Origin: Micromonospora rubida
GTDB taxonomy: Bacteria; Actinomycetota; Actinomycetes; Mycobacteriales; Micromonosporaceae
Direction of reading: 5' to 3'
Length of the DNA stretch: 64,000 nt
Assembly (NCBI RefSeq): GCF_009908295.1
Contig: NZ_JAAALO010000007.1
Span: forward strand, 62,001 to 126,000
Positions 5,630 through 29,404 of the stretch are shown here, in pieces (within the stretch, counting starts at the first letter, position 1; every line of letters begins with the position of its first letter). The position numbers and the translations under genes were made by a program. The notes beneath the pieces are model-generated. The model was not told where the DNA came from and made no database searches. It was given only the letters and a program-made list of their open reading frames with translations.

Positions 5630-5659
5630 GTGGCAGGTGACGACGACATCTCCGGGTGA
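5630..5659 (+). promoter_or_regulatory. Possible leader-peptide ORF upstream of the ABC-F gene
   Basis: A GTG codon at 5630, preceded by GGAG at 5621, opens a nine-codon frame ending in TGA at 5657-5659. It lies about 120 nt before the ABC-F start. Antibiotic-resistance ABC-F genes in actinomycetes and firmicutes are often controlled by ribosome-mediated attenuation over such leader peptides. No clear terminator/antiterminator pair was found by eye, so this is only a candidate. Confidence 0.25.
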
Positions 5660-5781
5660 GATCCCGGACCGGCCGCCGACAGACGCTTGATCGCGCTGTC
5701 GCCGCGGCCATCTCGTCGTCCCTGTTTCCCGCCGGGTGCCCGTCTGTGCGCGCCCGGATCACGCTTTCCGAGGATCTCACC

Positions 5782-7419
5782 ATGTCCAACGGTTACATCG
5801 TCTGCTCCGCCCTGTCCTTCGCCTGGCCGGACGACACCCCGGTGTTCAGCGACCTCTCCTTCTCCGTGCCCGGTGGCCGCACCGGCCTGGTGGCGGCCAA
5901 CGGCACGGGGAAGAGCACACTGCTGCGGCTGATCGCCGGGGAACTGCGCCCGACCACCGGATCCGTCACGGTGCGGGGCACGCTCGGCTACCTGCCCCAG
6001 CACCTGCCCTTCAGTGGCGAGCAGAGCGTCGCCCAGCTCCTCGGCGTCGACCAGATCATCGCCGCGCTGCACGCCATCGAGGCCGGCGACGCGAGTGAGG
6101 AGCACTTCACGACAGTCGGCAACGAGTGGGACGTCGAGGAGCGCACCCGCGCCGAGCTGGACCGGCTCGGCCTCGGCGATCTCACCCTGGACCGGAAGCT
6201 GGGCACTCTCAGCGGCGGCCAGGTGGTGTCCCTGGGCCTGGCCGCCCAGCTTCTCAAGCGTCCGGACGTGCTCCTGCTGGACGAGCCGACGAACAACCTC
6301 GACAGCGAGGCGCGGGATCGGCTGACCGCCGTGCTGCGCGCGTGGACCGGCTGCCTCCTGGTCGTCAGCCACGACCGGGCGCTGCTGGACGAGGTGGACC
6401 GCGTCGCCGCCCTGGAGCACGGCGAGATCGAGTGGTACGGCGGCACGTACACCGACTACGAGCAGGCCGTACGCGGCCGGCGCGAGGCAGTCGAACGCCA
6501 GGTGCGCAGCGCCGAGCAGGACCTCAAGCGGCAGAAGCGGGACATGCAACAGGCCCGGGAGCGCGCCGCCCGCCGGGCATCGAACGCGTCCCGCAACCTG
6601 TCCAACGCCGGCCTGGCCCGGATCGTCGCCGGCGGGCTGAAGCGTGATGCCCAGGTCTCGGCGGCCCGGTCGAACGAGACCCACGCGGACCGGGTCGGCG
6701 ACGCCCAGGCCCGCCTGGACCAGGCGAGCCGTGCCGCCCGGCAGGACGACCGGATCGCGATCGAGCTGCCCGGCACCAACGTGCCGGCCGGGCGCACCGT
6801 CTTCCAGGGCGAACACCTGCGGGCCGGGTACGACGGCCGCCCGGTCTTCGCCGGCGAGGGCGTCGACCTGACCATCCGGGGCCCGGAACGCATCGCCCTG
6901 ACCGGCGCCAACGGTGCGGGCAAGTCCACCCTCCTCCGGCTGGTCAGCGGCGACCAGACACCGGTGTCCGGCGTCGCCGCCCGAGCCGACGGCCGCGTCG
7001 CGTACCTGTCCCAGCGGCTCGACCTGCTGGACCCCGCCCGCACGGTCGCCGAGAACCTCGCCGTGTTCGCGCCGGCCCTGCCAGACGCCGACCGGATGAA
7101 CCTGCTCGCCCGGTTCCTGTTCCGCGGCTCCCGCGTCCACCTGCCGGTACGCGTGCTCTCCGGGGGCGAGCGCCTGCGGGCGACGCTCGCCTGCATCCTG
7201 TTCGCCGAACCCGCGCCCCAGCTACTGCTTCTCGACGAACCCACCAACAACCTGGATCTGGTCAGCGTGGGCCAGCTGGAAAGCGCGCTCGTCGCGTACC
7301 AGGGCGCCTTCGTGGTGGTCAGCCACGACGAGCGTTTCCTGACCGAGATCGGGGTGACCCGCTGGTTGAGGCTGGCCGACGGGCACCTGACCGAGACCGG
7401 CGCCCCGGAGGCCGGCTGA
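5782..7419 (+). CDS. ABC-F family ATPase (ribosomal-protection type)
   Basis: A 545-residue protein with two ATP-binding cassettes and no membrane segments, the layout and length of antibiotic-resistance ABC-F proteins such as TlrC/OleB-like ones. The first cassette has Walker A ANGTGKST, signature LSGGQ and Walker B LLLDEPTNNLD; the second has ANGAGKST, LSGGER and a second LLLDEPTNNLD; the interdomain linker (about residues 225-330) is rich in Arg/Gln and would reach the ribosome. I chose the ATG at 5782 because AGGA lies 8-11 nt before it; a longer open frame from 5656 has no such support. Known ABC-F members displace drugs from the ribosome; the drug here is unknown. The gene ends about 70 bp from the truncated end of an oxidoreductase, which suggests it arrived by insertion. 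Confidence 0.88.
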   Translation: MSNGYIVCSALSFAWPDDTPVFSDLSFSVPGGRTGLVAANGTGKSTLLRLIAGELRPTTGSVTVRGTLGYLPQHLPFSGEQSVAQLLGVDQIIAALHAIEAGDASEEHFTTVGNEWDVEERTRAELDRLGLGDLTLDRKLGTLSGGQVVSLGLAAQLLKRPDVLLLDEPTNNLDSEARDRLTAVLRAWTGCLLVVSHDRALLDEVDRVAALEHGEIEWYGGTYTDYEQAVRGRREAVERQVRSAEQDLKRQKRDMQQARERAARRASNASRNLSNAGLARIVAGGLKRDAQVSAARSNETHADRVGDAQARLDQASRAARQDDRIAIELPGTNVPAGRTVFQGEHLRAGYDGRPVFAGEGVDLTIRGPERIALTGANGAGKSTLLRLVSGDQTPVSGVAARADGRVAYLSQRLDLLDPARTVAENLAVFAPALPDADRMNLLARFLFRGSRVHLPVRVLSGGERLRATLACILFAEPAPQLLLLDEPTNNLDLVSVGQLESALVAYQGAFVVVSHDERFLTEIGVTRWLRLADGHLTETGAPEAG

Positions 7420-7453
7420 GGGCTCCCGGCGGCGGCGTGGATAGCCGCCGCCT

Positions 7454-7491
7454 GGCCCCTGCTGCCGGCCGACCAGCCAGCCGCAGGGGCC
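7454..7491 (+). terminator. Hairpin downstream of the ABC-F gene
   Basis: A 9-bp perfect stem, GGCCCCTGC (7454-7462) and GCAGGGGCC (7483-7491), with a 20-nt loop, begins 35 nt after the ABC-F stop. No T-run follows, as is usual in high-GC actinomycetes. It also marks the point where similarity of the neighbouring oxidoreductase fragment stops. Confidence 0.5.
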
Positions 7492-8059
7492 CGGTCCGGT
7501 GCTCGATTCCGGCGAGGGCGAGCAGCTCGCCGGTCTCGCTCGCCTCCAGCACCTGCCGGGCGCCGATGTGCTGTACCGAGCCGTCGGCCAGGCGGACAGC
7601 CACCCCGGTCACGGTGTCGCCGTCGGTCGTCGCGCTGAGCAGGGTGGCCTGGGTGTGCACGACCAGCCGGCCGGAAGCGCGCCAGGGGGCGAGCATCGCG
7701 CGCAGCACCGCCAGCGCGGCGCGCGGCTCGTGGCAGAGCGCGCTGACCCAGCCGTTACCCGGGTTGAGCAGTCCACCGGCCCGGGCCGGGGCCAGGGCGT
7801 ACCAGTCCTGGTAGTACGACCGCACGCCCTGCCGGAACCGGCGGTAGCTGGCGGTGGAGCCGTGGGTCTCGATCCAGCGGTGCTCGTCCGGGGGCACCGC
7901 CTGCGAGGTGAGCTGACCGCCGATCCACGCGTACGGCTCGATGACCGCCACCCGGGCCCCGCCCTCGCAGGCGGCCAGCGCGGCGGCGACGCCACCCACC
8001 CCGCCGCCGACGACCAGCACGTCGGTGTACACCTCGTTGGTCCGTCCGGTGCGGCCCAT
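7492..8059 (-). pseudogene. FAD-dependent oxidoreductase, 3'-truncated remnant
   Basis: The ATG at 8059 overlaps the GntR stop (TGATG), so the gene was once the third member of that operon. The first 190 residues are a normal PF12831-type FAD protein: VLVVGGGVGGVAAALAA dinucleotide-binding motif, then GGQLTSQ, and VLEASETGELLALAGIEH. After that the sequence changes abruptly into a hairpin and then the antisense of the ABC-F gene, with an open frame running meaninglessly to 7319. Full-length relatives are about 450 residues or more, so more than half is missing. FAD oxidoreductases of this kind commonly accompany nanE-type genes. The product is unlikely to be functional. Confidence 0.75.
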
Positions 8060-8766
8060 CAGCCGGTGTCCCCTCGTCGTGCGGTCAGCGCGAAGTGGTA
8101 CCGGTCGCCGCGGTAGAGCGAGACCGCCCGCTCCACCGCCCGGCCGCGACTGTCGAAGCCGATCCGCCGCACCTCCAGCAGCGCCGAGGCGGGCGGGATC
8201 TCCAGCAGCTTGCACTGCCGCTGGTTGGGCACGACGGCGGCGATCCTCTGCTGGGCCACGGTCACCTGGACCTGGTACCGGTCCCGCATGGTCTCGTAGA
8301 GCGCCCCGTCGAGGTTCTCGACCAGCAGTCCGGGGAAGAGATCGGCGGGCAGGTGCACCTCCTCCAGGCACATCGGCGCGCCGTCGGCCATCCGCAGCCG
8401 CTCCACCCGGTAGAGCAGGGAGCCCTCGGGCAGGCCTAGCTCGACGGCCAGGGCTTCCCTGGCGACCACCGCGTCCGTCTCGATCATCCTGCTGCTCGGA
8501 GCCAGCCCCCGGGCCCGCATGTCCTCGGTGAATCCACTGAGGCTGGCGCCCTTGGCGATCCGGGTGTCGGAGGCGAAGGTGCCCTGGCCCCGGATGGTGT
8601 AGATCAACCCGTCGTCGAGCAGTTCGCGCAGGGCCTGGCGCAGCGTCGTCCGGCTCACGCCCAGTTCCTCGGCGAGGTCCCGCTCCCTGGGCAGGGCCGC
8701 GTGGGCCGTCAGCTCGGCGACCCGGCGCCGCAGCTCGGTGCGGGTCTGGCTCAGTTTGGTGGTCAT
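8059..8766 (-). CDS. GntR-family (HutC/FadR-like with UTRA domain) transcriptional regulator
   Basis: A 235-residue regulator: N-terminal winged helix-turn-helix with LPRERDLAEELGVSRTTLRQALRELLDDGLI (residues about 25-55) and GQGTFAS wing, followed by a UTRA ligand-binding domain with LLEVRRIGFDSRGRAVERAVSLYRGDRY near the C terminus. The ATG at 8766 overlaps the stop of the nanE remnant (TGATG). UTRA-type GntR regulators sense phosphorylated sugars; next to a nanE fragment the ligand may be an amino-sugar phosphate such as ManNAc-6-P or GlcNAc-6-P (inference). It is intact although both flanking operon genes are truncated. The perfect inverted repeat at 9315-9336 is its probable operator. Confidence 0.88.
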   Translation of the reverse strand: MTTKLSQTRTELRRRVAELTAHAALPRERDLAEELGVSRTTLRQALRELLDDGLIYTIRGQGTFASDTRIAKGASLSGFTEDMRARGLAPSSRMIETDAVVAREALAVELGLPEGSLLYRVERLRMADGAPMCLEEVHLPADLFPGLLVENLDGALYETMRDRYQVQVTVAQQRIAAVVPNQRQCKLLEIPPASALLEVRRIGFDSRGRAVERAVSLYRGDRYHFALTARRGDTG

Positions 8767-9252
8767 CAAGACTCCACGGGGGAATGCGGGCAGGCGTACG
8801 CGAACCGACGTGTGGTGTTGACCGGGTCGGAGATCGCGGTGCCGACGACGACGGCCCACGCGCCCTCATCGAAGGCTGCCGCGACCTGGGCAGGGGTACG
8901 GTACCGTCCCTCTCCGATAACCGGAATCGGACAACGCCGGCTGATCGCGCCGGCCAGCGCGATGTCCGGGTCGTCCGGTACGTCTGTGCCGGTGGTGTAG
9001 CCGGCCAGCGTCGTACCGACCAGGTCGGCTCCGGCGTCGACCGCGGCGAGTGCGGCGTCCAGAGTGTCCACGTCGGCCATGAACAGCGCGCCGCCGGCGT
9101 GGGTCGCCGCGACCAGATCGGCCAGCTTCTCCCCACCGGGGCGGGGCCGTCCGGTCGCGTCGGCGGCCACGATCCGGGCACCGGCTTCGGTCAGCGCCGT
9201 CACGTCGGCCTCGGTCGGGGTGATGTAGACCGGGCTGCCGGGGGTGCTCCGA
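8766..9252 (-). pseudogene. nanE: N-acylglucosamine-6-phosphate 2-epimerase (nanE), 5'-truncated
   Basis: The reading frame from about 9252 down to 8766 matches the C-terminal two-thirds of NanE, the TIM-barrel enzyme that converts N-acetylmannosamine-6-phosphate to N-acetylglucosamine-6-phosphate: GSPVYITPT, ADATGRPRP, ADVDTLDAALAAVDAGADLVGTTLAGYT, PVIGEGRYRTPAQVAAAF and VVGTAIS. The usual first 60 or so residues, with the start of the barrel, are absent. Instead the frame runs into the first codons of another gene (9253-9283). An open frame with ATG at 9305 exists but gives an unrelated N terminus, so the product is probably inactive. The three remaining genes of this locus still form overlapping stop/start junctions. 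Confidence 0.7.
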
Positions 9253-9283
9253 TACCTACCACACCGATCCTGAGGCGGTCCAC
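9253..9283 (-). pseudogene. Start of a Gfo/Idh/MocA-type dehydrogenase, cut off after about 11 codons
   Basis: On the minus strand a GTG at 9283, preceded by a strong GGGAGG site, opens a frame reading MDRLRIGVVGIG, the N-terminal Rossmann motif of a Gfo/Idh/MocA dehydrogenase. After that motif the sequence switches to the interior of nanE in another frame. This is the signature of an internal deletion that removed most of the dehydrogenase and the 5' end of nanE. Confidence 0.5.
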
Positions 9284-9314
9284 GCCAAACCTCCCACTGT
9301 TGCATACCGACAAC

Positions 9315-9336
9315 CGGTTAGGTATGTACCTAACCG
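9315..9336 (-). promoter_or_regulatory. Perfect inverted repeat, probable GntR operator
   Basis: Arms CGGTTAGGTA (9315-9324) and TACCTAACCG (9327-9336) form a perfect 10-bp inverted repeat with a 2-bp TG centre, 32 bp before the GTG at 9283. The size and even symmetry fit a GntR/HutC-type dimer site; the surviving gntR gene of the operon is the natural candidate to bind it. Confidence 0.7.
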
Positions 9337-9550
9337 CTTGTAGTTGTACACCTCGCCCGGACCCGTGACAAGTCCTGTCCCGCTCTGGAATCCGGCGCTT
9401 GAGCTGCGACGTCGCGGCGATCGGTGGCGGACGGCCCGGTCCCGGTGGCGGGACCGACGCCCGGGCCCGGACGGCGGGCGGAAAGGCCGGCGCGGCGTGG
9501 CATGATGGCGCGACCCCGGGCCGAGCCGGGGAGATCCGACGCGCGGACGG

Positions 9551-11068
9551 GTGAGACGAATGCTGCACTCCGGCCTGAGGCTCGGCGGCCGTTACCGCCT
9601 GGACACCCGGATCGGCGCCGGCGGCATGGGCGAGGTGTGGCGGGCGGTCGACGAGGTGCTCGGCCGGGTCGTCGCGGTGAAGGCCATGCTCCCGGAGGTG
9701 GCCGACGAGCCGGACTTCGCCCGTCGCTTCCTGGCCGAGGCGAAGGCCATGGCCAGTGTGAACCACCCCGCCGTGGCGTCGATCCACGACTACGGACGCA
9801 GCGACGGCGTCACCTTCCTGGTGATGGAGTTCGTCGACGGCGAGTCCCTCGCCGGGGTGCTGCGCCGGTCCGGTCGGCTGGCCCCCGAGGAGGTCATGCG
9901 GCTGATCGCCCAGGCGGCCGACGGCCTGCAGGCCGTGCACGACTGCGGGATCGTGCACCGGGACGTCAAGCCGGCCAACCTGCTGATCCGCCGGAACGGG
10001 TCGGTGCTGATCACCGACTTCGGGATCTCGCGGACCTGGGACGGCACCCACCTCACCGTCTCCGGCGCGGTCCTGGGCACCCCCTCCTACCTCTCGCCGG
10101 AGCAGGTGCTCGGGCAGCCCGCCACCGCTCTCAGCGACGTCTACGCCCTCGGGCTCACCGCCTACGAGTGTCTCGCCGGGCACCGCCCGTTCGCCGGGGA
10201 CAGCCCGTACGCGATGGCCCTGCAACGGGTGCAGTTCGCACCGCGTCCCCTCGACGCTGACCTGCCCCGCCCGGTGCTTGCCGTCGTCGGGCGTGCCCTG
10301 GCCACCGACCCGGCCGGCCGCTGGGCCTGCGCCGCCGATCTGGCGGCCGCCGCCCGGTCCGCCGCCGCCGGGTCTGCCGCCGCCGCCGGGTCCGCCGCAG
10401 ACGGCTGGTCCGCGCCGGGTGGGCATCGGCCGCCGTCGGCAGTGGCCTCGCCGGGCGTCGCGGTGCCGTCCCCGGCGGGACCGGCCTGGCCCGGCACAGC
10501 GCCACCGGTTTCCGCCGGCGGCCCACGGGCGGCGCGCCGGCGGTGGCCGCTGGTCGCCGCGCTGCTGGCGATCGTGCTGGTCGGCGGAGCTGCGGTCTGG
10601 CGGGCCGGCCTCGGCCGTGGCGACGGGCCGGCGTCCGGCACCGGGCCGCAGCAGCCGAGCACCGCCCCGACGGACGACGCCGCCCGGCAGGCCGGGTTCA
10701 CGTCCTGCGGTGCGGCGTTCTGCCCCACCCGCCCGCTCTGCTGGCGAGGGCTGACCTCGATCAGCGGCAACGCCATGCCGCCCCGCCGGGTCGACTGCAC
10801 GGCCGAACACGCCTGGGAGACCTTCGCGGCGACGTACCTGCCCGCCGACGCGGTCGATGTCCCCCAGGACGAGTTGATGGCCCGCGCCGACGTCGGCGCC
10901 GCCTGCTCGGCGTCGGTCATGGCCGCGCGCAGCGGCGGCCGGACCACCACCGGCTGGGTACGCGAGGCGTGGCCGATCCAGCTCACCGGCACCGACGTCT
11001 GGCTCGTGCACTGCCTGGCCCGGCCGGAGACCGGTGACCCGTCCGGTTCCGCCTTCTCGGCCCGCTGA
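9551..11068 (+). CDS. PknB-like membrane Ser/Thr protein kinase
   Basis: A 505-residue receptor-type kinase. The N-terminal catalytic domain (residues about 14-275) shows GAGGMGEVW (glycine loop), VAVKAM (catalytic Lys), HRDVKPANLL (catalytic loop), ITDFGIS (DFG) and LSPEQ. An Ala/Gly/Pro-rich linker follows, then one membrane segment at about residues 331-350, then an extracytoplasmic domain of about 150 residues with several Cys (AAFCPTRPLCW, VDCTAEH, GAACSAS, VHCLARP) that may form disulfides. It has no PASTA repeats, so it differs from PknB itself. The start is GTG at 9551 or ATG at 9560. It stands alone; the outer domain probably senses an unknown signal. Confidence 0.92.
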   Translation: MRRMLHSGLRLGGRYRLDTRIGAGGMGEVWRAVDEVLGRVVAVKAMLPEVADEPDFARRFLAEAKAMASVNHPAVASIHDYGRSDGVTFLVMEFVDGESLAGVLRRSGRLAPEEVMRLIAQAADGLQAVHDCGIVHRDVKPANLLIRRNGSVLITDFGISRTWDGTHLTVSGAVLGTPSYLSPEQVLGQPATALSDVYALGLTAYECLAGHRPFAGDSPYAMALQRVQFAPRPLDADLPRPVLAVVGRALATDPAGRWACAADLAAAARSAAAGSAAAAGSAADGWSAPGGHRPPSAVASPGVAVPSPAGPAWPGTAPPVSAGGPRAARRRWPLVAALLAIVLVGGAAVWRAGLGRGDGPASGTGPQQPSTAPTDDAARQAGFTSCGAAFCPTRPLCWRGLTSISGNAMPPRRVDCTAEHAWETFAATYLPADAVDVPQDELMARADVGAACSASVMAARSGGRTTTGWVREAWPIQLTGTDVWLVHCLARPETGDPSGSAFSAR

Positions 11069-19770: not shown

Positions 19771-21108
19771 TCAGGACCGCTCGACTGCCCCGCGCATGAC
19801 GTGCCCCTGTGAGGTGGCCGGCGGCTGCACGCCGAGGAGTGCGCTGATGGTGGCGGCCACGTCGACCAGGCCGACGTTGCGCAGCGGGACGTCGCGACGG
19901 ATCCCGGCGCCGGAGAGCACCATCGGGACCCGCGCCTCCGGCAGCGCGCCGTGCGAGGCGCGCGGGGCGCCGTCGGCGAGCGTCGAGAGATGGTACGGCT
20001 CGACCGGCTCCACGACGAGGTCACCGAGCTTGTCGCTGGCGCTCATCCGGCGCAGGTCCCGCTGGTCACGGACGGCCGCGATCCCCGGGATGCCCTTGAT
20101 GATCCTGGCGATGCGGCGCGCGTTCTGCGGGGTGTCCGCCCTGCCGCTCAGGGTGATGTCGGCGGTACGGGGCGAGGCCACGATGACGATCTCGCTCGCC
20201 GGGTCCGGCACGCCGCCCGAGGAGGAGATGACCTGGACGGTGAGGCCCGTCCCGGACAGCCGGTCGAGCACCTCGGGCAGCAGCGGAACGGTCCACTCCC
20301 GGGCGCCGTGGTCGGCGGTGACGAGGAAGGCCGTCCGGTCCAGGATGCCGGCCTCGCGGGCGGCGTCGCGGACCCGCCCGATCTGGGCGTCCACCCGGGC
20401 CAGGGCGGCGGGCAGCTCGGGGTCGGAGAATCCGCCGTCGTGCAGCACGCCGTCGACGTCGTCGCAGTAGACGGTGATCAGGTCCGGGATCGCGGCCGGG
20501 TCGACCATCGTGCCGCCGGAGTTGACGGGCTCGCCACGCAGCAGCGCGATCGCCTGGTCGGCGCGGGTCTCGCAGTTTCCGCCCGGCTGGGTGTACAGCG
20601 CGGCGGGGTCACCGTACGTGGCCCCGTAGTTCTGCACCGCGTACCACTGGAGGTAGGCCGAGGTGCGGTCCTGCCGCTTCAGCGACTGGGCGATCGTCTC
20701 GACGCCGGGCTCGATGTACCGCTCCTGGGAGACGCCGCGACCGGTTTCGTGGTTGTAGTAGTAGCCGGTGTTGCGGTGCACGGCGGGGTACGCGCCGGTC
20801 GCCGTCGTCGTCCGTGACGAGTTGGAGTACGACGAGTACGACCCGTCTGCGACGCCGTGGGCGCCGTTCTCGATCAGCGCCCGGATGTTGGGCAGCTCCG
20901 CCAGATCGGCGTAGCGGCCGTCGAGGAAACGGGGGTCGAAACCGTCGAAATCGAACATGATCACGTGCTGCGCGGGCCGCGTTCGGCTCTTCGCCGTGTC
21001 GGACGACGCCGACGCCGTACCCGCTGGCAGCACCGCCGCCGCGAGCAGTGCGACCGTGCCCGCCGCGACGCCTCTGGCCGCGTTCGAGCGCCTGATCGGA
21101 TGCGCCAC
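19771..21108 (-). CDS. Secreted alkaline-phosphatase-superfamily phosphodiesterase (nucleotide pyrophosphatase type)
   Basis: A 445-residue exported enzyme: N-terminal signal peptide (RRSNAARGVAAGTVALLAAAV, cleavage near ASAS), then a type I phosphodiesterase/nucleotide pyrophosphatase fold. HVIMFDFDGFDPR gives the first metal-binding Asp, SNSSRTTTATGAYP contains the Thr nucleophile, and LVTADHGAREWTVP and RASHGALPEARVPMVL give further His/Asp ligands. The GTG start at 21108 follows AGGAGG by 6 nt. It is the first gene before the GlcNAc-type importer and divergent from the Lrp gene. It may cut a phosphodiester-linked glycan outside the cell so that the sugar can be imported (inference). Confidence 0.88.
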   Translation of the reverse strand: MAHPIRRSNAARGVAAGTVALLAAAVLPAGTASASSDTAKSRTRPAQHVIMFDFDGFDPRFLDGRYADLAELPNIRALIENGAHGVADGSYSSYSNSSRTTTATGAYPAVHRNTGYYYNHETGRGVSQERYIEPGVETIAQSLKRQDRTSAYLQWYAVQNYGATYGDPAALYTQPGGNCETRADQAIALLRGEPVNSGGTMVDPAAIPDLITVYCDDVDGVLHDGGFSDPELPAALARVDAQIGRVRDAAREAGILDRTAFLVTADHGAREWTVPLLPEVLDRLSGTGLTVQVISSSGGVPDPASEIVIVASPRTADITLSGRADTPQNARRIARIIKGIPGIAAVRDQRDLRRMSASDKLGDLVVEPVEPYHLSTLADGAPRASHGALPEARVPMVLSGAGIRRDVPLRNVGLVDVAATISALLGVQPPATSQGHVMRGAVERS

Positions 21109-21173
21109 CTTCTGCCTCCTCAACCCCGTGCTGGCCGTGGACGAGAGTCTGCCGGAGGCACGAGGCAGATTGT

Positions 21174-21199
21174 CAAGATCATGGTGCGAGATGCAAGAT
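21174..21199. promoter_or_regulatory. Direct repeat CAAGAT in the Lrp/phosphodiesterase divergent region
   Basis: CAAGAT occurs at 21174-21179 and 21194-21199, exactly 20 bp apart, i.e. on the same face of the helix. On the minus strand the first copy is part of TTGACA, a good -35 hexamer for the phosphodiesterase operon. Paired sites with helical spacing suit an Lrp-type regulator; the divergent Lrp gene is the likely binder. Confidence 0.4.
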
Positions 21200-22228
21200 T
21201 CCGGTATGAAGAACCGCTCAGGTGACGGGATCGACGGATCCTTGGACGAACTCGACCGCCGGATCGTCGGTGCCCTGCTCTCCCATCCGCGGGCCACCCA
21301 CGCGCAGATCGGCGAGGCGGTGTTCACGTCGGAGGCGACCGTGTCCCGGCGGATCCCGCGGCTGCTCCGCAGCGGAGCGGTCCGGGTCATCGGCGTCATG
21401 GACGGCGAGGCGACCCGCCGGGCGCGATCGCTGTTCGTCCGGCTGCGCTGCCGCCCGGACGCCGCCAGCCGTTCGGCCGAGCACCTGGCCCGGTGGGAGG
21501 AATGCGGATCGGTCAAGCTGCTCACCGGCAGCGTGGACTGCCTCGCCGAGGTTTCCTACACCTCCAACGAGCACCTGCTCCAGCTCATGTTCAAGCAGCT
21601 GCCAGGCCTGGACGGCGTTCTCGCCGTCTGGAGCAACCAGGTGATCCGCAGGTTCGCCACGCCACACAACTGGAGCCCGAGCCTGCTGCCGGCCGAGGTG
21701 GTCGACAGGCTACGGGCGCAACGGATGGATCGCTGGGACGAGCAGTCACTCGTCGAGGCGCCGCCGCGGCTCAGCCCGCTCGACGAGATGATCGTCGGCA
21801 GCCTCGCCGCCGATGGCCGCCAGGGTTGGCAGCAGCTGGCCGAGCGGTGCGGCGCGAGCCCTGCCACCGTACGGCGGCGGGCCGAGGCGATGATGGCGGC
21901 CGGGTTCCTGCGCATGCGGACGGTTGTCGAGCCCAGCGTGGTCGGTCTCGCGGTGAACGCGTTCATCTTCCTCAGCATCAACCCCACCCAGCTCGGGCAG
22001 GCCGGTGAACTGCTCGCCGCGCACCCGGCCGTCCTCATGATCGCCGCGACGACCGGGGACCGGAACCTGTGCGGCGAGGTCGCGCTGGAGAATGACGCCG
22101 CGCTCTACGAGTTCCTGTCCGGCACCATAGGCCAGCTACCCGGCCTGCAACACGCGGACATCGCCGTTGCCCTACGTTCCGTCAAGCGGGCGGGGATGGT
22201 CCTGCCGCTCATGCCGGGCAGTCGTTGA
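21191..22228 (+). CDS. Double-module Lrp/AsnC-family transcriptional regulator
   Basis: About 345 residues, twice the length of ordinary Lrp. The first half has a helix-turn-helix LDELDRRIVGALLSHPRATHAQIGEAVFTSEATVSRR; the second half has another, LSPLDEMIVGSLAADGRQGWQQLAERCGASPATVRRR, each followed by an AsnC-type ligand-binding domain. The start is ATG at 21191 or 21206; neither has a strong ribosome site. It diverges from the phosphodiesterase/importer/GH89 operon and is the only regulator there, so it probably controls it. That would be unusual, since Lrp proteins normally sense amino acids and sugar operons usually carry LacI, ROK or GntR regulators. Confidence 0.87.
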   Translation: MQDSGMKNRSGDGIDGSLDELDRRIVGALLSHPRATHAQIGEAVFTSEATVSRRIPRLLRSGAVRVIGVMDGEATRRARSLFVRLRCRPDAASRSAEHLARWEECGSVKLLTGSVDCLAEVSYTSNEHLLQLMFKQLPGLDGVLAVWSNQVIRRFATPHNWSPSLLPAEVVDRLRAQRMDRWDEQSLVEAPPRLSPLDEMIVGSLAADGRQGWQQLAERCGASPATVRRRAEAMMAAGFLRMRTVVEPSVVGLAVNAFIFLSINPTQLGQAGELLAAHPAVLMIAATTGDRNLCGEVALENDAALYEFLSGTIGQLPGLQHADIAVALRSVKRAGMVLPLMPGSR

Positions 22229-22246: not shown

Positions 22247-23500
22247 CTACCCGTCGCGGAGGGCTCGGCGGGAGAGCCCGAAGCTGAACGCGGCGCCCAG
22301 CGTCGCCGCGGTGGCCAGGAAGAGCACCCCGCTTCCGAACGCTTCCACCACCAGCCCCGCCGCCACGCCGGACAGCGGGAAGAGGCTCAACGCCGCGAAG
22401 AGGATGGCACTCATCACCCGGCCGAGCAGGTGGGCGGCGGTGTGCTGCTGGACGACGGTGATGATCAGAACGTTGGTCACGGTGCTGGCGACCCCGGCGA
22501 CGACCAGCGCGACGACGGCACCGGCGTAACCGGCGAACGGCACGAGCGCCACCGCCCCGGCCATCACCAGCCCGGAGAGCATGGCCGTGGCACCGCGCCG
22601 TCGTAGCCCGGCCAACCCCGCGGTGAAGAACCCGCCGGCCAGCGAGCCTCCGGTGAACGCGGCCAGCAGGCCACCGAAGCCACCGGCCCCGGCGGCCAGG
22701 TCGGTGCTGGCCAGCGAGGGCAGCCCCACCCGGATCATCCCGCCGACGGTCAGGTTGGCCGCGGCGGTCACCGCCAGGACGGTCCGCAGCAGCGGCGACC
22801 CGCGCAGCAGCTGCCAGAACGTCAACCGAGGCGGCGGTGGCGTCCCGTCGGTGGGCCGGGCGACCGGAGAGACCCGGCGATGGTGCACCCCGATGGCCGC
22901 GAGACAGCCGGCCGAGACCGCGAAGGTGAGCGCGTCGACGCCGAACGCGACGCCCGGCGAGAGCGCGACGACGAGCAGCCCGGCGACCCCGGGCCCGACC
23001 AGGCCGGCGGCGAAGCCGGCGGTGCTGTGCAGCGCGTTGCCGGCCGCCAACTGGTCGGCGGGGAGCAACCGGGGCGTGATGGCGTAGGCGGCCGGCTGGA
23101 ACAGGCCGGCCCCCAGGCCGGTGCCGGCGACCAGCACCCCGAGCAGGACGAGATCCGGGTCGCCGGCGACGGCGGCCACCGCGATCGCGGCGGTGAACAC
23201 CAACCTGCCGAGGTCGGATACCAGCATTACCTGCCAGGGGCCGATCCGGTCGGCGAGGGTCCCGCCCAGCGGCGTGGTCGCCAGCCGGCACAGGCCGTAG
23301 ACCGCGACCAGCAGCCCGAGTTCCCGGGCGCCCCCGCCGACCTGGTAGACCAGCCAGGGCAGCGCGACGGCGTGGAACGCGTCGCCGAAGACCGACACCG
23401 ACTCGGCGACGAAGAGCAGCCGGTAGTCGCGGGACCGCAGCGGCTCCAGACTGAGCCGGGGCCACAGCCGCCGGGGGGTTCGGGTGGCGGAGTCAGCCAT
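22247..23500 (-). CDS. MFS exporter of the RiPP cluster
   Basis: A major-facilitator efflux protein of about 417 residues with 12 membrane segments, similar in layout to the enterobactin-exporter (MFS_3) branch: SRDYRLLFVAESVSVFGDAFHAVALPWLVYQ, then LGGTLADRIGPWQVMLVSDLGR with the loop 2-3 motif. The ATG at 23500 overlaps the end of the P450 gene by 8 nt; a start at 23530 would lie deeper in that gene. As the last gene of the radical-SAM/P450 cluster it is the likely exporter of the finished peptide and may give self-resistance. Confidence 0.88.
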   Translation of the reverse strand: MADSATRTPRRLWPRLSLEPLRSRDYRLLFVAESVSVFGDAFHAVALPWLVYQVGGGARELGLLVAVYGLCRLATTPLGGTLADRIGPWQVMLVSDLGRLVFTAAIAVAAVAGDPDLVLLGVLVAGTGLGAGLFQPAAYAITPRLLPADQLAAGNALHSTAGFAAGLVGPGVAGLLVVALSPGVAFGVDALTFAVSAGCLAAIGVHHRRVSPVARPTDGTPPPPRLTFWQLLRGSPLLRTVLAVTAAANLTVGGMIRVGLPSLASTDLAAGAGGFGGLLAAFTGGSLAGGFFTAGLAGLRRRGATAMLSGLVMAGAVALVPFAGYAGAVVALVVAGVASTVTNVLIITVVQQHTAAHLLGRVMSAILFAALSLFPLSGVAAGLVVEAFGSGVLFLATAATLGAAFSFGLSRRALRDG

Positions 23501-24698
23501 GCGTGGCCACCGGCAACGATTCCAGCCCACGGAGCATGATCGTGTTCCGCCAGCGCAGGTCCGCGTCGGTGCCGGCCAACGTCAGCACCGGAAAGCGGCT
23601 GAGCAGCGCGTCCAGCGCCACCTCGCCCTCGAGTTTGCCGAGGAACGCGCCGACGCACCGGTGCAGCCCGTGGCCGAAGGCAAGGTGCCCGGCGTCGCCC
23701 CGGTCCAGGACGAGCCGGTCGGCGTCGGGGAACCGGTCGGGGTCGCGGTTCGCCCCGCCCAGCGACACCAGGACCAGTTCCCCGGCGGGAATCTCGACCC
23801 CGTCGACGTCCACCGGCTCGGTGGTGAACCGCAGGGTCGCCATGCTCACCGGGGACTCGTAGCGGAGGAACTCGTCGACCGCCATCGGCAGCGCGGCCCG
23901 GTTCCGCCGCAACCAGGCGTGCTGGTCGGGGTTGCGGAGCAGGGCGAGGGTGGCGGTGCCGAGCAGGTTCACGGTCGTCTCATGGCCCCCGATCAGCAGC
24001 AGGAACACCATGCCCACGATCTCGTCGTCGGTGAGCTGACCCTGGTCGCGGGCCGCGAGCAGGACGGTCAGCAGGTCGTCGCGGGGGTCCGTGCGCCGCC
24101 TCGCGAGCACGACGGCGATGTGGTCGGTCAGCTCCCGCATCGCCCGCCCGAAGGCCTCCGGGTCGTCGCCGTGGGTCAGGATCGCCGTCGACCAGCTCCG
24201 ATAGGCGGCCCGGTCCTCCGGCGGGAAGCCGATCAACTCGCAGATGACCAGCATGGGCAGCGGGAAGGCGAAGTCCGTCACGAGATCGACGGTGTCGCGG
24301 TCGGCGATCCCGTCGAGCAACGTGGTGGTGACCCGCTCCACCAGCTGGCGCATGGCCGCCACCCGCCGGGCGGTGAAGAACCCGTGGATCAGCCGACGTA
24401 GCCGGGTGTGGTCGGGCGGGTCGCTGTTGAGCATGTGGACCATGTCGCTGCCGAGCGTCACGCCCGCCACCCGGTCGTCGGCCAGCTCCTGCGCCCGGCG
24501 GACGTCCTGCCCGAACCTCGGGTCGGCCAGCACCGCCCGCACGTCGCGGTACCGGGCGACCACCCACATGGGCAGGCCCTCGTCGCTGTGCAGGATCGAC
24601 ACCGGACCGTTGGCCCGGATCCGGGCCAACGTCGGGTACGGGTCGACGATGAACGGGGCCTGCCGTGGCGGCGTCAGCTCGTCCTCGGCGGTGCTCAT
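23493..24698 (-). CDS. Cytochrome P450 (CYP107-like) of the RiPP cluster
   Basis: A 401-residue soluble bacterial P450. The I-helix oxygen-binding motif is GGHETT near residue 240, the ExxR motif lies in EFLRYESP, and the haem-binding loop is FGHGLHRCVG near residue 337-346 with the Cys ligand. The ATG at 24698 follows GAGGAG. It lies 48 bp downstream of DUF5825 in the same operon. The predicted precursor peptide has no Trp or Tyr and only one His, so aromatic crosslinking is unlikely; hydroxylation of Pro, Val or a methylated side chain is more plausible (inference). Confidence 0.93.
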   Translation of the reverse strand: MSTAEDELTPPRQAPFIVDPYPTLARIRANGPVSILHSDEGLPMWVVARYRDVRAVLADPRFGQDVRRAQELADDRVAGVTLGSDMVHMLNSDPPDHTRLRRLIHGFFTARRVAAMRQLVERVTTTLLDGIADRDTVDLVTDFAFPLPMLVICELIGFPPEDRAAYRSWSTAILTHGDDPEAFGRAMRELTDHIAVVLARRRTDPRDDLLTVLLAARDQGQLTDDEIVGMVFLLLIGGHETTVNLLGTATLALLRNPDQHAWLRRNRAALPMAVDEFLRYESPVSMATLRFTTEPVDVDGVEIPAGELVLVSLGGANRDPDRFPDADRLVLDRGDAGHLAFGHGLHRCVGAFLGKLEGEVALDALLSRFPVLTLAGTDADLRWRNTIMLRGLESLPVATHG

Positions 24699-24746
24699 GG
24701 GTCTCCTCGGGGTGACACGGTCGGGGGAGCTGGACGGTCGGGGGAG

Positions 24747-25406
24747 CTAGACGAGCAGGGCGGGGAAGGGCCAGCGGTGGGCGCGGGTCGGCAACCACCA
24801 CAGGTGACCGGCCTGCTCGACGACCAGGTGGGCCCCGACGAGGTCACGGCGCACCTCGGCCGGCACCTCCGTCGCGGCGACGCCCTCCACCAGCGCCGTG
24901 ATCGCCGTCAGGTGACCCGGCTCGTCGATCGTCACCACCTCCAGGGAGCCGGACCGCCGGTCGCGGATCTCCACGAACCCGGGTCCGCGCCGGTAGACGC
25001 ACCGGCAGAGGAAGAACGCCTCCCACCAGCGGGTGGTGACCGTGCCTTCGGGGTCCCCGTCGAGCCGTGCCGGCGGGTGGAGGTGGGTGAACAGGTCGCT
25101 GCCGTGGCACCCGTCCCGGCAGCGTGCCGTCCAGTCCACCGCGACCCCGTGGGCGGTCAGCTCGCGGATCAGCACGAGGGAACGCGCCGAGGTGGCGTCG
25201 GCGTCCCCGCACAGGTCCACCGGGTGGGTGAGCCGCGCGTGCCGTGCGCCGTCGCGGTACCAGCCGGCCACCGTCGGGCCGCACGGCCCGACGAGCCGGT
25301 GCGTGCCGAGCGCCATCCCGGGCAGCCGCGCGGCGGCCGGATCGTAGTCCCGGGACAGCTCGACCTGGAGCTCGGTCGCCCCGAAGTCAACCCGCTGCGA
25401 CGGCAT
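24747..25406 (-). CDS. DUF5825-family protein, companion of RiPP radical SAM methyltransferases
   Basis: A 219-residue protein of unknown mechanism. It matches the DUF5825 pattern: an N-terminal beta-rich part (FGATELQVELSRDYDPAAARLPGM), a middle WTARCRDGCHGSDLFTHLHPP segment with Cys and His residues, and RWWEAFFLCRCVYRRGPGFVEIRDRRSG. Members are regularly encoded next to B12-dependent radical SAM C-methyltransferases of RiPP pathways. The ATG at 25406 overlaps the 3' end of the radical SAM gene by 20 nt, so the two are translationally linked. It may be a precursor-recognition or accessory subunit; this is inference from context. Confidence 0.8.
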   Translation of the reverse strand: MPSQRVDFGATELQVELSRDYDPAAARLPGMALGTHRLVGPCGPTVAGWYRDGARHARLTHPVDLCGDADATSARSLVLIRELTAHGVAVDWTARCRDGCHGSDLFTHLHPPARLDGDPEGTVTTRWWEAFFLCRCVYRRGPGFVEIRDRRSGSLEVVTIDEPGHLTAITALVEGVAATEVPAEVRRDLVGAHLVVEQAGHLWWLPTRAHRWPFPALLV

Positions 25407-27285
25407 GCCGGTCCTCCCCGCCGCGCGCGGTGGCGTCCGCCGCAGCCCGATGATGGTCGATCCGGGCCAGCACCTGGTTGTGCGACTCCACGGCGGTGTG
25501 CACCCAGCAGCCCCCCTCCCGGAACACGATGCCCAGCTCTGACCAGTGGTCGAGCAGTGGTTGCACCACCGCCGCCCCGCCGGGTGTCCGCGCGGCCAGC
25601 GTGGTGGCGGTCCGGGGCTGTTCCAGCAGCCGGAACAGCCCGACCTCGACGGGCGAGGTCAGCTCGCACACCGACCAGTCGTACGCGGCCCGCCGGCTGA
25701 CCAGCACGATCCGGTCGTCGATCTCCTGGCAGGTGAGCCGGCTGACCGGGTACTTGGCCCGCCACCGCTCGATCGCCGCGTCCAGCGCCGCCGCCTCGTC
25801 CGGGCCGATGCCCTGGGCGACGGTGGTGAAGATGTACGCCAGGTCGGCGAGTTCCCCGGCGGGCAGGTCGTAGATCTGCCGGTACTGCGGGGCCGGCTCC
25901 AGCACCGGGAAGCCCAGTTCCGGCTGGTTGAAGTACGGGCTGAACCGCTCGATGGCGATCCGCGCCGCTCCCATCGGCGGATCGAGGTGGTGCAGCGCCG
26001 GCAGCTGCGCGATGACCTCGGTGTAGTCCTCGGCCGTCTCGCCGGGGAACCCGTACAGGTAGTTCCAGCTCGTCGTCACCCCGGCGCTCTGCGCCTCGCG
26101 CAGCGCCCGGACGTTCTGGCAGCCGGTCACGCCCTTGTCCATCAGCCGCAGGACGTGGGTGCTGAGGTTCTCCACCCCCGGCTGGACCTGCACCGCCCCG
26201 GCCTCACCCAGCCGTCGGAAGTGGTGCCGGCGCAGGTTGGCCTTGACCTCGAAGTGCAGGCGGACGTCGTAGTCCGACTCGGCCAACCGGAGCAGCACCG
26301 AGTCGAAGTACGCCATGTCCAGGATGTTGTCGACCACGATGAAGTCGAGCAGCTGGTGCCGGCGGGCCAGGTCCAACACCTCGTCGAGGAAGCGACCCGG
26401 GCTCTTGCTGCGGAACTGCATCGACGAGCCGTTGAGACCGCAGAACGTGCAGTGGTGCTTCTCGCCCCACCAGCAGCCGCGCGAGCCCTCGACGATCAAC
26501 TTCGGCGCCACCCACTCGGCCGCCGCCGAGGCGTCCAGGCGTTCGACGAAGCCGGTGTAGTCCGGGGTGACGATCCGCGCCGGCGGCAACGGTTGCGCCG
26601 ACATCGGGTTGGCCCGCGCGGCACCCGTCGCGTCCCGCCAGCACAGCCCGGGGACGTCCGCGAGGTCGTCCGCCGCGCCGCCGAGCACGTCGAGCAGGCG
26701 GGGGAAGGCCACCTCCCCTTCGCCCCGGACGACGAAGTCGAGGAACGGGAAGTTGCGGTGCAGCGCCGCGCCCTGCACCCCGTCGCAGTTGGCCCCGCCG
26801 AGCACGGTCCGCACCGCGGGCCGGCGCTGCTTGAGCAGGCGGGCGGTGGCCAGGCTGGCGGTGTTCTGCTGGAAGGTGCTGGTGAACCCGACGACGTCCG
26901 GCGCGGCGGCGTCCAGCTCGGCGACCAGCGTCTCCACGAACTCGGGCACCAGCTCGTGCAGCGCGGCGGTCATCGCCGTCTCGGCCGGGCTCGATCCCGC
27001 GTCGGCCAGCAGCCGGCGAAGCGGCGTGAAGTCGCGCCGCTCGCCGTAGAGCGCGCCGGCGAACACCCAGTCCCCGGCGCCCTGGAAGTAGGACGTCTCG
27101 GAGAAGTACTGGTATTCGGCCAGGCCGAGGGGAAGGCGGTCCACCACCCAGTCGACGAAGTCCAGGTTGGCGTAGCGGACCTGCACGTCGTGGCCGGCGG
27201 CGCCGGCCGCGGTACGCAGGATGCCCAGGGCGAGCGACGGGACGTCGAGCGATCCCCACGGCATGTGCACCAGGACGACCTTCAT
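25387..27285 (-). CDS. B12-binding radical SAM C-methyltransferase for RiPP maturation (rSAM_ocin_1 type)
   Basis: A 632-residue enzyme. The N-terminal half is a cobalamin-binding fold (VVLVHMPWGSLDVPSLALGILR; DVVGFTSTFQQNTASLATARLL; FVVRGEGEVAFPRLL). The radical SAM core carries the family-specific cluster motif GCWWGEKHHCTFCGLN, i.e. C-x7-C-x2-C, near residue 270-281, followed by FIVVDNILDMAYFD and YLYGFPGETAEDYTEV. This is the ribosomal-peptide-maturation radical SAM protein 1 family, annotated as C-methyltransferases that use methylcobalamin and SAM to methylate unactivated carbons. The ATG at 27285 follows AAAGGAG. It lies 94 bp after a 49-residue peptide gene, its likely substrate, with a hairpin in between. 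Confidence 0.93.
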   Translation of the reverse strand: MKVVLVHMPWGSLDVPSLALGILRTAAGAAGHDVQVRYANLDFVDWVVDRLPLGLAEYQYFSETSYFQGAGDWVFAGALYGERRDFTPLRRLLADAGSSPAETAMTAALHELVPEFVETLVAELDAAAPDVVGFTSTFQQNTASLATARLLKQRRPAVRTVLGGANCDGVQGAALHRNFPFLDFVVRGEGEVAFPRLLDVLGGAADDLADVPGLCWRDATGAARANPMSAQPLPPARIVTPDYTGFVERLDASAAAEWVAPKLIVEGSRGCWWGEKHHCTFCGLNGSSMQFRSKSPGRFLDEVLDLARRHQLLDFIVVDNILDMAYFDSVLLRLAESDYDVRLHFEVKANLRRHHFRRLGEAGAVQVQPGVENLSTHVLRLMDKGVTGCQNVRALREAQSAGVTTSWNYLYGFPGETAEDYTEVIAQLPALHHLDPPMGAARIAIERFSPYFNQPELGFPVLEPAPQYRQIYDLPAGELADLAYIFTTVAQGIGPDEAAALDAAIERWRAKYPVSRLTCQEIDDRIVLVSRRAAYDWSVCELTSPVEVGLFRLLEQPRTATTLAARTPGGAAVVQPLLDHWSELGIVFREGGCWVHTAVESHNQVLARIDHHRAAADATARGGEDRHAVAAG

Positions 27286-27314
27286 CGCCGGTCTCCTTTC
27301 GACGGGGCGGACAT

Positions 27315-27347
27315 CGTTCCGGGGCAGCGCAGCAGCGCCCCGGAACG
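27315..27347 (-). terminator. Strong hairpin between precursor gene and radical SAM gene
   Basis: Arms CGTTCCGGGGC (27315-27325) and GCCCCGGAACG (27337-27347) pair perfectly over 11 bp with an 11-nt loop. It sits 32 nt after the precursor stop and 30 nt before the radical SAM start. There is no T-run. In RiPP operons such a hairpin often acts as a partial terminator or stabiliser, making precursor transcripts exceed enzyme transcripts. Confidence 0.65.
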
Positions 27348-27378
27348 ACGCCTCGGACGTGCCGTCACCGTTGCCGGG

Positions 27379-27528
27379 TCACTTGCCGGTGGGTCGGGGT
27401 GCCTCGGTCACCTGGGGCCGCGCGGCCGGGACCGCCCGGTCAAGATCGAGGAGCATCTTGACGATGACGGCGCCGCGGTCCCGCTCGCCCGTGCTGATCG
27501 GGTCGTGCCGCACAGTGCGTCGCTTCAT
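27379..27528 (-). CDS. Candidate RiPP precursor peptide, 49 residues
   Basis: A small gene with a very strong ribosome site (GGAGGGAGGTGA, 27534-27545) before the ATG at 27528. The first part is charged (MKRRTVRHDPISTGERDRG), followed by a helical hydrophobic stretch AVIVKMLLDLDRAV that looks like a recognition helix, and a Pro-rich C-terminal tail from PAARPQ to PRPTGK that is the likely core. It has no Cys, Trp, Tyr or Phe, one His and four Thr. It lies immediately before the B12 radical SAM methyltransferase, DUF5825, P450 and exporter genes, with a hairpin after its stop. Its 5' part overlaps the 3' end of the S9 peptidase frame by 89 nt. It is below normal gene-calling length. The precursor role is inferred from position, ribosome site, size and composition. 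Confidence 0.72.
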   Translation of the reverse strand: MKRRTVRHDPISTGERDRGAVIVKMLLDLDRAVPAARPQVTEAPRPTGK

Positions 27529-29404
27529 TCCATTCACCTCCCTCCGGTTGGTCCGGGGTCGGACCCCGCCGGTCGCGGTGGTCCTGGCTGGGGGACGCCG
27601 GAGTCCGGACGCCCGGCGGCAGCACCGTGGCGGCGTACCGGAGCAGGGCGGAGAAGACGGTCGTCTGGTCGGCGGCGTCCCCGTGGTGCCCGCCGGTGGT
27701 CCAGACCACCTCGTGCGGCACCGACCGGTCCCGCAGCGCGGCCACGTACCGCCGGACCGCCTCCGCCGGGCAGCGTTCGTCGTCGGTCGCGGCGGCGACG
27801 AAGAGCGGCCCGCGGACCCGGTCCAGGTACGTCATCGGGTTGGCGGCCCGGTACCGGTCGGGAACCTCGGCGGGGGTGCCACCGAAGAGTTCCTCGTCCG
27901 CCTCGCGCAGGGCGGGCAGCGCCGTGCGGTGGGCCGTGGAGTAGTCGGCCACCGGGGACACCGCCAGCCCGACCGCCCAGTCGTCGGGCTCGACGCCCAT
28001 CGCGAGCAGGACCAGGTAGCCGCCCCAGGAGTAGCCACACAGCCCGATCCGTCCCGGCTCCGTGACACCGAGGTCGACCAGGTGCCGGCGTACCGCGCCG
28101 AGGTCCTCCAGCTGCGCCAGGCCGACCCGGTGGCCGAAGTCGTGCCGCCACCGTGGACCGTAGCCCGTGGACCCCCGGTAGTTGGTGCGCACGACGGCGT
28201 AACCGGCGCCGGTGAGCAGCTCCACCCGTGGGTCGTAGCTGTCCCGGTCGTGCAGGAACGGCCCACCGTGGAGCAGGAAGATCATCGGCCATGGCCCGGT
28301 TCCGGGCGGGGTGGCCAGGAAACTGTGGATCCGACCGTACGGTCGGGAGGTCCACACCTCGCCACGTCCGGACGCGGTCGGCGGGGCCGGTGCCGGGTGG
28401 CGGTCGGCGGCCGGGTCGACGACCAGCCGGCGCGGCGGCACCGCCTCCCGGCTCCACACGTAGTGGATCCCGCCCTCGGGCGAGCAGGCCAGGTCGAGGA
28501 TGGTCCCGGGCGGGGTGGGCAGGACGCTCGGCGCGCCGCCGACGAGGTCGGACAGGAGTAGCCGGCTGCGCCCCGACCGATCCTGTTGGATCAGCACCCG
28601 GCGGCCGTCGACGTACCAGTGCGCGGTGATCTCCGTGTCGAACGCCAACTGCTCGTGCGGCCGGATGTCGTGCCCCGCCCGCCAGGTGGCGACGGTGTAG
28701 CGCCCGCCCGCCTCGACGACCACCAGCAGGGTGGGGTCGTTCCCCGAACCCGGGCGGAACTCCAGTGCCCACACCCGGCGGTGCCGGTCACCGGCCAGGA
28801 CCTCGGTGCGGCCGTCGGTGAGCCGCACCACGGTGACCGCGGTGGGGCCGTCCGGTCGTCCGGCCAGGGCGAGCAGGGTGCCGTCCGCGCTCAGGTCCAC
28901 CAGGGGCACGTAGCCCGGGGCGGTCGCCAGCAGGTGCGCCGGCCCGCCGGGCGTCCCGAGGAAGTACCGGGACTCCGCGCCGAACCCGACACAGACGACC
29001 GCCAGCTTTCCGGCGTGGTCGAAGGCGATGCCGTACGGCCGGCCTGGTGGCACCCCGGTCAATGCGGGGGCGGCCGGCCCGTCCTCGAACGGCTGGCGTC
29101 GCCAGAGCCCCACGCCGTCCGGGTCGGTGTCGAACCACCAGACGTGGCCGCCGTCCGGCTCCAGGTCACAGGCGTCCACCCCGTGCCGTGCCTGGGTCAG
29201 GACCCGGCGACCACCGGTGGCGCGGTCCCAGGAGACGACCTGGGAACGGCCACCGACGTCGTCGAGTTCGATGGCCCGGAGCGAATCGTTGGCGGCGAAT
29301 GCCGGTGCGCGCAGTGGAATCACGACGACCCCGTTCCTACGGACGGCCGGAGGACCGATGGTAATCGAACCCTGACTATGTGTAAACGTCGAGATCCGCC
29401 GCAT
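27440..29404 (-). CDS. S9 (prolyl oligopeptidase-family) serine peptidase of the RiPP cluster
   Basis: About 654 residues: an N-terminal beta-propeller (residues about 20-400, repeated blades such as SADGTLLALAGRPDG) and a C-terminal alpha/beta-hydrolase with GLCGYSWGGYLVLL (Ser nucleophile), ATDDERCP (Asp) and TTGGHHGD (His). No signal peptide. S9 family members act as leader peptidases in some RiPP pathways (class III lanthipeptides), and the candidate precursor has a Pro-rich region at the leader/core boundary, so leader removal is a reasonable proposal. The start is uncertain: ATG at 29404 has a weak ribosome site and GTG codons near 29320 are alternatives. The last 30 or so codons overlap the precursor gene and are low-complexity Arg/His-rich, so the conserved part ends before them. 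Confidence 0.85.
   Translation of the reverse strand: MRRISTFTHSQGSITIGPPAVRRNGVVVIPLRAPAFAANDSLRAIELDDVGGRSQVVSWDRATGGRRVLTQARHGVDACDLEPDGGHVWWFDTDPDGVGLWRRQPFEDGPAAPALTGVPPGRPYGIAFDHAGKLAVVCVGFGAESRYFLGTPGGPAHLLATAPGYVPLVDLSADGTLLALAGRPDGPTAVTVVRLTDGRTEVLAGDRHRRVWALEFRPGSGNDPTLLVVVEAGGRYTVATWRAGHDIRPHEQLAFDTEITAHWYVDGRRVLIQQDRSGRSRLLLSDLVGGAPSVLPTPPGTILDLACSPEGGIHYVWSREAVPPRRLVVDPAADRHPAPAPPTASGRGEVWTSRPYGRIHSFLATPPGTGPWPMIFLLHGGPFLHDRDSYDPRVELLTGAGYAVVRTNYRGSTGYGPRWRHDFGHRVGLAQLEDLGAVRRHLVDLGVTEPGRIGLCGYSWGGYLVLLAMGVEPDDWAVGLAVSPVADYSTAHRTALPALREADEELFGGTPAEVPDRYRAANPMTYLDRVRGPLFVAAATDDERCPAEAVRRYVAALRDRSVPHEVVWTTGGHHGDAADQTTVFSALLRYAATVLPPGVRTPASPSQDHRDRRGPTPDQPEGGEWNEATHCAARPDQHGRAGPRRRHRQDAPRS

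Follow-up and report, generated by a model that had tools for sequence, protein, structure and literature searches.

Which kind of peptide, if any, would be made by a compact row of minus-strand genes in Micromonospora rubida (genome of 7.47 Mb) is the question raised by positions 22247-29404 of a 64,000-nucleotide stretch of contig NZ_JAAALO010000007.1, hereafter called the window. We consider it likely that this six-gene cassette is an operon for a ribosomally synthesized and post-translationally modified peptide (RiPP), of the clavusporin-like kind in which a B12-binding radical S-adenosylmethionine (SAM) enzyme is paired with a DUF5825 protein, and that it represents a branch with an added cytochrome P450 and a downstream exporter of the major facilitator superfamily (MFS). 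Judging from the sequence, its product is very probably a small ribosomal peptide, which is C-methylated, oxidized, cut out and exported. The six closely packed minus-strand genes described in a first-pass annotation are all present, and their coordinates were refined as listed here in the order of transcription (S9 peptidase, precursor, radical SAM, DUF5825, P450, MFS), together with a hairpin and with the RiPP recognition element (RRE)-like region discussed below.

27440..29404, minus strand: S9 prolyl-oligopeptidase-type peptidase, putative leader protease (PF00326; GYSWGG nucleophile motif; two candidate starts, 29404 or 29494)
27379..27528, minus strand: precursor peptide gene, 49 amino acids, MKRRTVRHDPISTGERDRGAVIVKMLLDLDRAVPAARPQVTEAPRPTGK (15-row alignment, DNA conservation, dN/dS)
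27311..27351, minus strand: hairpin between precursor stop and radical SAM start (stem scan and covariation; no T-run after it)
25387..27285, minus strand: B12-binding radical SAM enzyme, predicted C-methyltransferase, 632 amino acids (TIGR03975; TsrM/TokK-like model)
24747..25406, minus strand: DUF5825 protein, 219 amino acids (PF19142; model; C-terminal residues about 136-204 modeled as an RRE-like winged helix)
23493..24698, minus strand: cytochrome P450, CYP107-like (PF00067; solved relatives TamI, PikC and EryF)
22247..23500, minus strand: putative MFS exporter (PF07690; longest frame from GTG at 23530, possible start at ATG 23500, overlapping the P450 stop)

By sequence, the stop of the S9 frame lies within the precursor gene, an overlap of 89 nt, and the radical SAM and DUF5825 genes overlap by 20 nt. 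The 49-residue open reading frame (ORF) matched no family in the family scans; on the evidence of its conservation, it is a real gene. Relatives were collected by a scan of genome contigs, which gave 563 stretches encoding radical SAM relatives, and the best 80 were kept, so that the counts given here refer to close relatives only. The check proposed in the first-pass annotation, for a conserved peptide ORF beside homologous radical SAM genes, was run and spoke for its reading: 72 of the 80 loci have upstream a precursor of the NDP[L/I] type, whose N-terminal part contains [ND]P[L/I/V] (DP in 66, NP in 6; the window has HDPI). No precursor was found in the remaining eight (L021, L058, L061, L066, L067, L079, L082 and L086); L066 starts 37 nt before the radical SAM gene, L061 and L067 are masked there, and L021 has a diverged candidate.

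The precursors fall into types that follow the presence of the P450. All 14 loci with a P450 carry a precursor of the MKRR[S/T][V/I]..DPI....ER.RGAV type, which occurs in none of the 58 others; these mostly read MQKD[I/V]IHNDPLAGDEENRKPGIGITVTVPFRNAE.. or MRKNIIENDPISGNRDQ..VTVTVTV. A run of at least six V/I/T/G/S residues is present in 55 of the 58 non-P450 precursors as compared to none of the 14 P450-type ones, and none was seen by inspection in the window precursor. Over the 15 aligned sequences, conservation extends through the first 32 residues (invariant MKRR, DPI, E15-R16, R18-GAV, D28 and A32), and a variable Pro/Lys-rich tail follows. With L102, L104 and L108 added to the 14 P450 loci, there are 17 more distinct clusters (18 including the window) whose precursor shows the four conserved blocks. 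L047 carries two different precursors in tandem ahead of one radical SAM gene, at -402 and -216 relative to it.

At the DNA level, no full 50-nt bin was better conserved than the one within the precursor in any of four Micromonospora-type comparisons (100, 100, 100 and 98% identity); beyond it, identity was 86-98% in the next bin and 90, 74, 70 and 56% in the second. In close relatives the precursor DNA is near-invariant, synonymous sites included (no differences in 36 codons with respect to both L007 and L102), and so is the stretch that it shares with the S9 frame (27440-27528); these precursors are too similar for a dN/dS reading. Such near-invariance and an overlap with the S9 frame, both of which a regulatory stretch would show, might suggest that the ORF only serves as a leader for translational coupling and that the true substrate is encoded elsewhere. 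We regard this as extremely improbable, given that the more distant copies show purifying selection on the protein (dN/dS 0.166/0.502 for L008, 0.165/0.582 for L104 and 0.175/0.678 for L011; ratios 0.26-0.33), that the family is kept at the protein level in 72 of the 80 loci despite very different DNA, and that a candidate precursor lies at the matching place in Streptomyces clavuligerus.

The genes around this precursor are kept together. The S9 gene lies upstream of the radical SAM gene in 72 of 80 loci (two of the eight without it, L066 and L082, are cut by a contig end), DUF5825 lies downstream in all but L048, which ends there (79 loci), and S9, precursor, radical SAM and DUF5825 were all seen in 69. 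P450 and MFS genes follow downstream in 14 of the 80, the MFS gene being present in every P450-type locus. Records of the P450-type cassette come from Micromonospora, Salinispora, Catenuloplanes, Actinophytocola, Streptomyces and Kitasatospora, and the nearest matches to the window are from Micromonospora. When window positions 15001-37000 were compared by blastn to the fetched relatives, the matches in ten inspected loci (eight distinct clusters, since L106 repeats L012 and L109 repeats L007) were confined to 22.24-29.39 kb, with no match in the flanks at E 1e-10; they formed a single block of 95% (L012) down to 70% identity (L023), in three pieces in L011. Of four flanking proteins compared to 92 loci, one gave one weak match, in a cluster without P450 (L041). 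Because DNA homology in the relatives compared stops at the cassette edges, the same six genes stand in different surroundings, and the cassette is thus kept together as a unit across differing genomic contexts. Directly downstream of the window MFS gene, a divergent frame with two AsnC/Lrp-type halves (20957-22228) is not common to the relatives compared.

A quick maximum-likelihood tree of 85 radical SAM proteins placed the P450 rows (the 14 loci and the window) together with L021 in one set (support of 95 in the Shimodaira-Hasegawa-like approximate likelihood ratio test, SH-aLRT), and the P450 label required two changes on the tree; none of 500 shuffles gave so low a number, and their mean was 14.0. 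What speaks against a uniform P450 branch is L021 itself (Streptomyces toxytricini), which lies within it and has neither S9 nor P450. Its region 5613-10545, from which both appear to have been lost, holds the diverged candidate precursor MKKRTVQSTDSAAGSGRWMVWAAPAARK, and its neighbors, judged by eye, are ATP-grasp-like, adenylating and alpha/beta-hydrolase-like frames. A search of the genus with the precursor profile matched 9 of 151 genomes, the own genome included; the other eight all carry the six genes, and five of them were taken as repeats of loci already in the set. The same profile applied to the class matched 3 of 394 genomes, again including the own one. The two further matches were weak (E 4.5e-4 and 6.7e-4) and were dismissed as chance, because tblastn of the six window proteins found no radical SAM, DUF5825, S9 or P450 gene nearby. 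The M. rubida genome also contains a second radical SAM (44% identical) and DUF5825 pair (G000:C33:42593-44994; L100 6588-8995), which lacks an S9 gene and, in the upstream small ORFs listed, an NDP-type precursor, and three more TIGR03975-like radical SAM genes within 12 kb (G000:C1:816506-828183; L101), one of them beside a P450 gene (26% identical), which is perhaps another P450-bearing RiPP cluster.

The family assignments that the first-pass annotation had drawn from motifs were upheld by family scans of S9, radical SAM, DUF5825, P450 and MFS proteins. By its sequence, the window radical SAM enzyme is an unequivocal member of TIGR03975 (641.7 bits, curated cut-off 281.85), and it also matches PF04055 and PF02310 (B12-binding, E 3.1e-12). 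In the alignments used for modeling, which held 41 radical SAM and 44 DUF5825 sequences chosen from the 80 loci for spread, all 41 radical SAM proteins share C271, C279 and C282 of the Cx7Cx2C motif. The model (predicted local distance difference test, pLDDT, 86.7) shares its fold with TsrM (Z 20.1; 428 residues, 4.0 A), TokK (19.5), OxsB (19.4) and CysS (18.7). These four enzymes, whose substrates are free tryptophan, carrier-bound molecules or nucleotides, are not known to act on a peptide presented by a DUF5825 protein.

The P450 (PF00067, E 1.3e-29) has its closest solved sequences in TamI, PikC, vitamin D hydroxylase and EryF (CYP107A1), with E values of 1e-103 to 1e-88, and the heme Cys, ExxR and GGHET motifs are present in all 14 P450 relatives. 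TamI, PikC, vitamin D hydroxylase and EryF hydroxylate aliphatic carbons. The window precursor contains no Phe, Tyr or Trp, His being its sole aromatic residue, and therefore an aromatic cross-linking by the P450 of the biarylitide type is unlikely; the simplest reading of its reaction is the hydroxylation of an aliphatic residue. The S9 protein (PF00326, E 1.2e-33) has acylamino-acid-releasing enzymes as nearest solved sequences (E 1e-28); 67 of the 72 homologs contain GxSxGG, which is missing from the frame chosen in L048, L071, L072, L081 and L083. The MFS match is PF07690 (E 6e-29). From these enzyme families we infer C-methylation and oxidation of the product.

It might instead be proposed that the radical SAM enzyme cross-links or rearranges its substrate, like the B12-dependent PbsB of a biphenomycin-like pathway, and that the P450 makes a second cross-link. 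The joining of ortho-tyrosines by a B12-dependent radical SAM enzyme has been reported (PMC12257519), and hydrophobic residues of the precursor core could be bridged. Nevertheless, the core of the window precursor offers no Phe, Tyr or Trp, and the enzyme belongs clearly to TIGR03975 and stands beside DUF5825, a pair for which the available text of PMC12257519 reports C-methylation. We therefore find cross-linking by the radical SAM enzyme quite improbable and retain C-methylation as its predicted reaction.

This pair has a known context. Clavusporins were described by Zhang, Li, Overton and Seyedsayamdost (Nat. Chem. Biol. 2025; cited in PMC12257519, PMC12026744 and PMC12951456). According to the available text of these citing papers, amino-acid C-methylation in clavusporin biosynthesis is the work of a B12-dependent radical SAM/DUF5825 pair (PMC12257519), the prolyl oligopeptidase MpcP serves in leader removal (PMC12951456), and the set of S9 peptidase, precursor, B12-dependent radical SAM enzyme and DUF5825 is associated with these compounds (PMC12257519, PMC12951456). 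As far as these accounts go, clavusporins and the window share the S9 prolyl oligopeptidase, the short precursor with an N-terminal NDP-type motif, the radical SAM enzyme and DUF5825, in the same order. On plasmid pSCL4 of S. clavuligerus (L112) we found an MFS gene, an S9 gene, an unannotated precursor, MQKDVIHNDPLAGDEENRKPSVGITITVPFRNAEDADED, a radical SAM gene and a DUF5825 gene, with no P450. We take this to be the clavusporin locus, and the V/I/T/G/S-rich hydrophobic run of its precursor is presumably the clavusporin core. The S9 and precursor frames overlap there as they do in the window.

The window might accordingly be read as a plain clavusporin cluster, making a linear C-methylated surfactant peptide, with P450 and MFS as minor accessories. 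The four genes in order and the [ND]P[L/I/V] motif, seen as NDP[L/I] in S. clavuligerus, place it in the broad clavusporin-type family. The window precursor does not have the V/I/T/G/S-rich hydrophobic core of clavusporins proper, and those of its branch form a separate type, longer (48-53 amino acids as compared to mostly 39). The MFS gene lies downstream in the window and upstream of S9 in S. clavuligerus, which lacks the P450 that the window branch adds. Moreover, the P450 is not an optional extra, since it is present in 14 of 14 loci with an MKRR-type precursor and in the eight genus genomes. A plain clavusporin cluster is thus unlikely, and the window is better seen as a variant within the broad family, set apart by the P450 and its own precursor family. 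It follows also that the methylated residues cannot be transferred by analogy, as the P450-branch precursors have no V/I/T/G/S run, which weakens the proposed pathway in this respect.

Two other systems are close in part. YHxYxY-type clusters of multinuclear non-heme iron-dependent oxidative enzymes (MNIO) with a second B12-dependent radical SAM enzyme and DUF5825, described in the available text of PMC12257519, have this pair in common with the window, which contains neither an MNIO nor a YHxYxY precursor. Biarylitide clusters, as presented in the available text of PMC12951456, have a small precursor close to a P450 and, in some cases, to a prolyl oligopeptidase; these precursors, some of the smallest known, carry cross-links at aromatic residues, and that account mentions no B12-dependent radical SAM enzyme. 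A literature search on the P450 branch found nothing in the sources covered, and the founding clavusporin paper, which lies beyond them, may describe it. The core gene set has been known since 2025; what looks new is the P450 branch, whose precursors form a family of their own, together with the hairpin and the RRE-like reading of DUF5825. The gene set is less new than the first-pass annotation proposed, as its four-gene core is already tied to clavusporins. The broader proposal made there, a RiPP cluster that combines an S9 leader peptidase, a C-methylating radical SAM enzyme, DUF5825, an oxidase and an exporter, is well supported by family scans and conservation.

Between the precursor stop and the radical SAM start, the longest stem outscored every one of 40 dinucleotide shuffles in all P450-type sequences but L011 (17 of 18) and in 56 of 59 non-P450 intervals (median stem score 13), some of which are near copies. 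Equal-length stretches inside the radical SAM gene, used as control, beat their shuffles (20 each) in none of 72 cases (median 5). Compensatory changes were observed at 7 of 13 hairpin pairs in 17 sequences (L011 left out), in stretches chosen by the stem finder and therefore favoring structure. Since whole-interval RNAfold against mononucleotide shuffles was mixed (z -2.7 for the window, 0.4 for L007, -0.4 for L102 and -0.6 for L108), the hairpin rests on the stem scan and covariation. Rfam gave no match in 21-31 kb. An intrinsic terminator was considered and ruled out, with no T-run or terminator-like site in the scan used. Stem-loops behind precursor genes favor the precursor mRNA in other RiPP operons, and the hairpin is probably an RNA processing or stability element of this kind.

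The DUF5825 protein (PF19142, E 3.7e-68) was modeled confidently (pLDDT 91.7). Residues 136-200 best match TbiB1 solved with a leader peptide (5v1v, Z 5.7, 62 residues, 2.5 A; 5v1u, Z 5.6), followed by 3h92 (Z 5.2) and ThcOx (5lq4, Z 4.9); TbiB1 and ThcOx carry RREs, a fold in which, as in PqqD, three strands lead into a winged helix of three helices. In the C-terminal part of the radical SAM enzyme (517-596), strands and helices follow one another as they do in this part of DUF5825 (DSSP). In the models, then, the C-terminal domain of DUF5825 weakly resembles a leader-binding RRE winged helix. Several results weigh against this resemblance: Z scores of 5.7-4.9 are within the range of a common arrangement, with the non-RRE 3h92 tied at 5.2; Foldseek on the model gave no significant match (best E 0.64; TbiB1 at rank 34, E 1.7); a PqqD/RRE family search found no match; and hhalign showed no profile similarity between the DUF5825 and radical SAM C-terminal domains (Prob 0.1%). 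The DUF5825 C-terminal domain also gave no sequence link to solved proteins or Pfam families.

In the pathway that we propose, the precursor would be translated at a high level, to which the S9 overlap and the downstream hairpin would contribute. Its leader (MKRR..DPI..ERDR) would be held by the winged helix of DUF5825, and perhaps also by the C-terminal domain of the radical SAM enzyme, as the models suggest. The radical SAM enzyme would then put methyl groups on unactivated carbons of the GAV[I/V]V... region, by analogy with its family and with clavusporins, and the P450 may hydroxylate or cross-link a side chain. The S9 peptidase would cleave after proline, with the conserved DP and the C-terminal prolines as candidate sites, and the MFS protein would export the product. 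It is conceivable, at somewhat less than even chances, that the cassette defines a new structural class, in which radical SAM C-methylation with a leader-binding DUF5825 is combined with oxidation or cross-linking by a CYP107-type P450 at non-aromatic residues, the hairpin sets the precursor to enzyme ratio, and DUF5825 is an unrecognized RRE protein. If true, an RRE-like DUF5825 would give a direct reason for its obligatory pairing with the radical SAM enzyme. Chemically, it is difficult both to methylate unactivated carbons and to carry out oxidations of the P450 type, and a compact cassette that, as its enzyme families suggest, may combine the two on one ribosomal peptide would be a tractable system.

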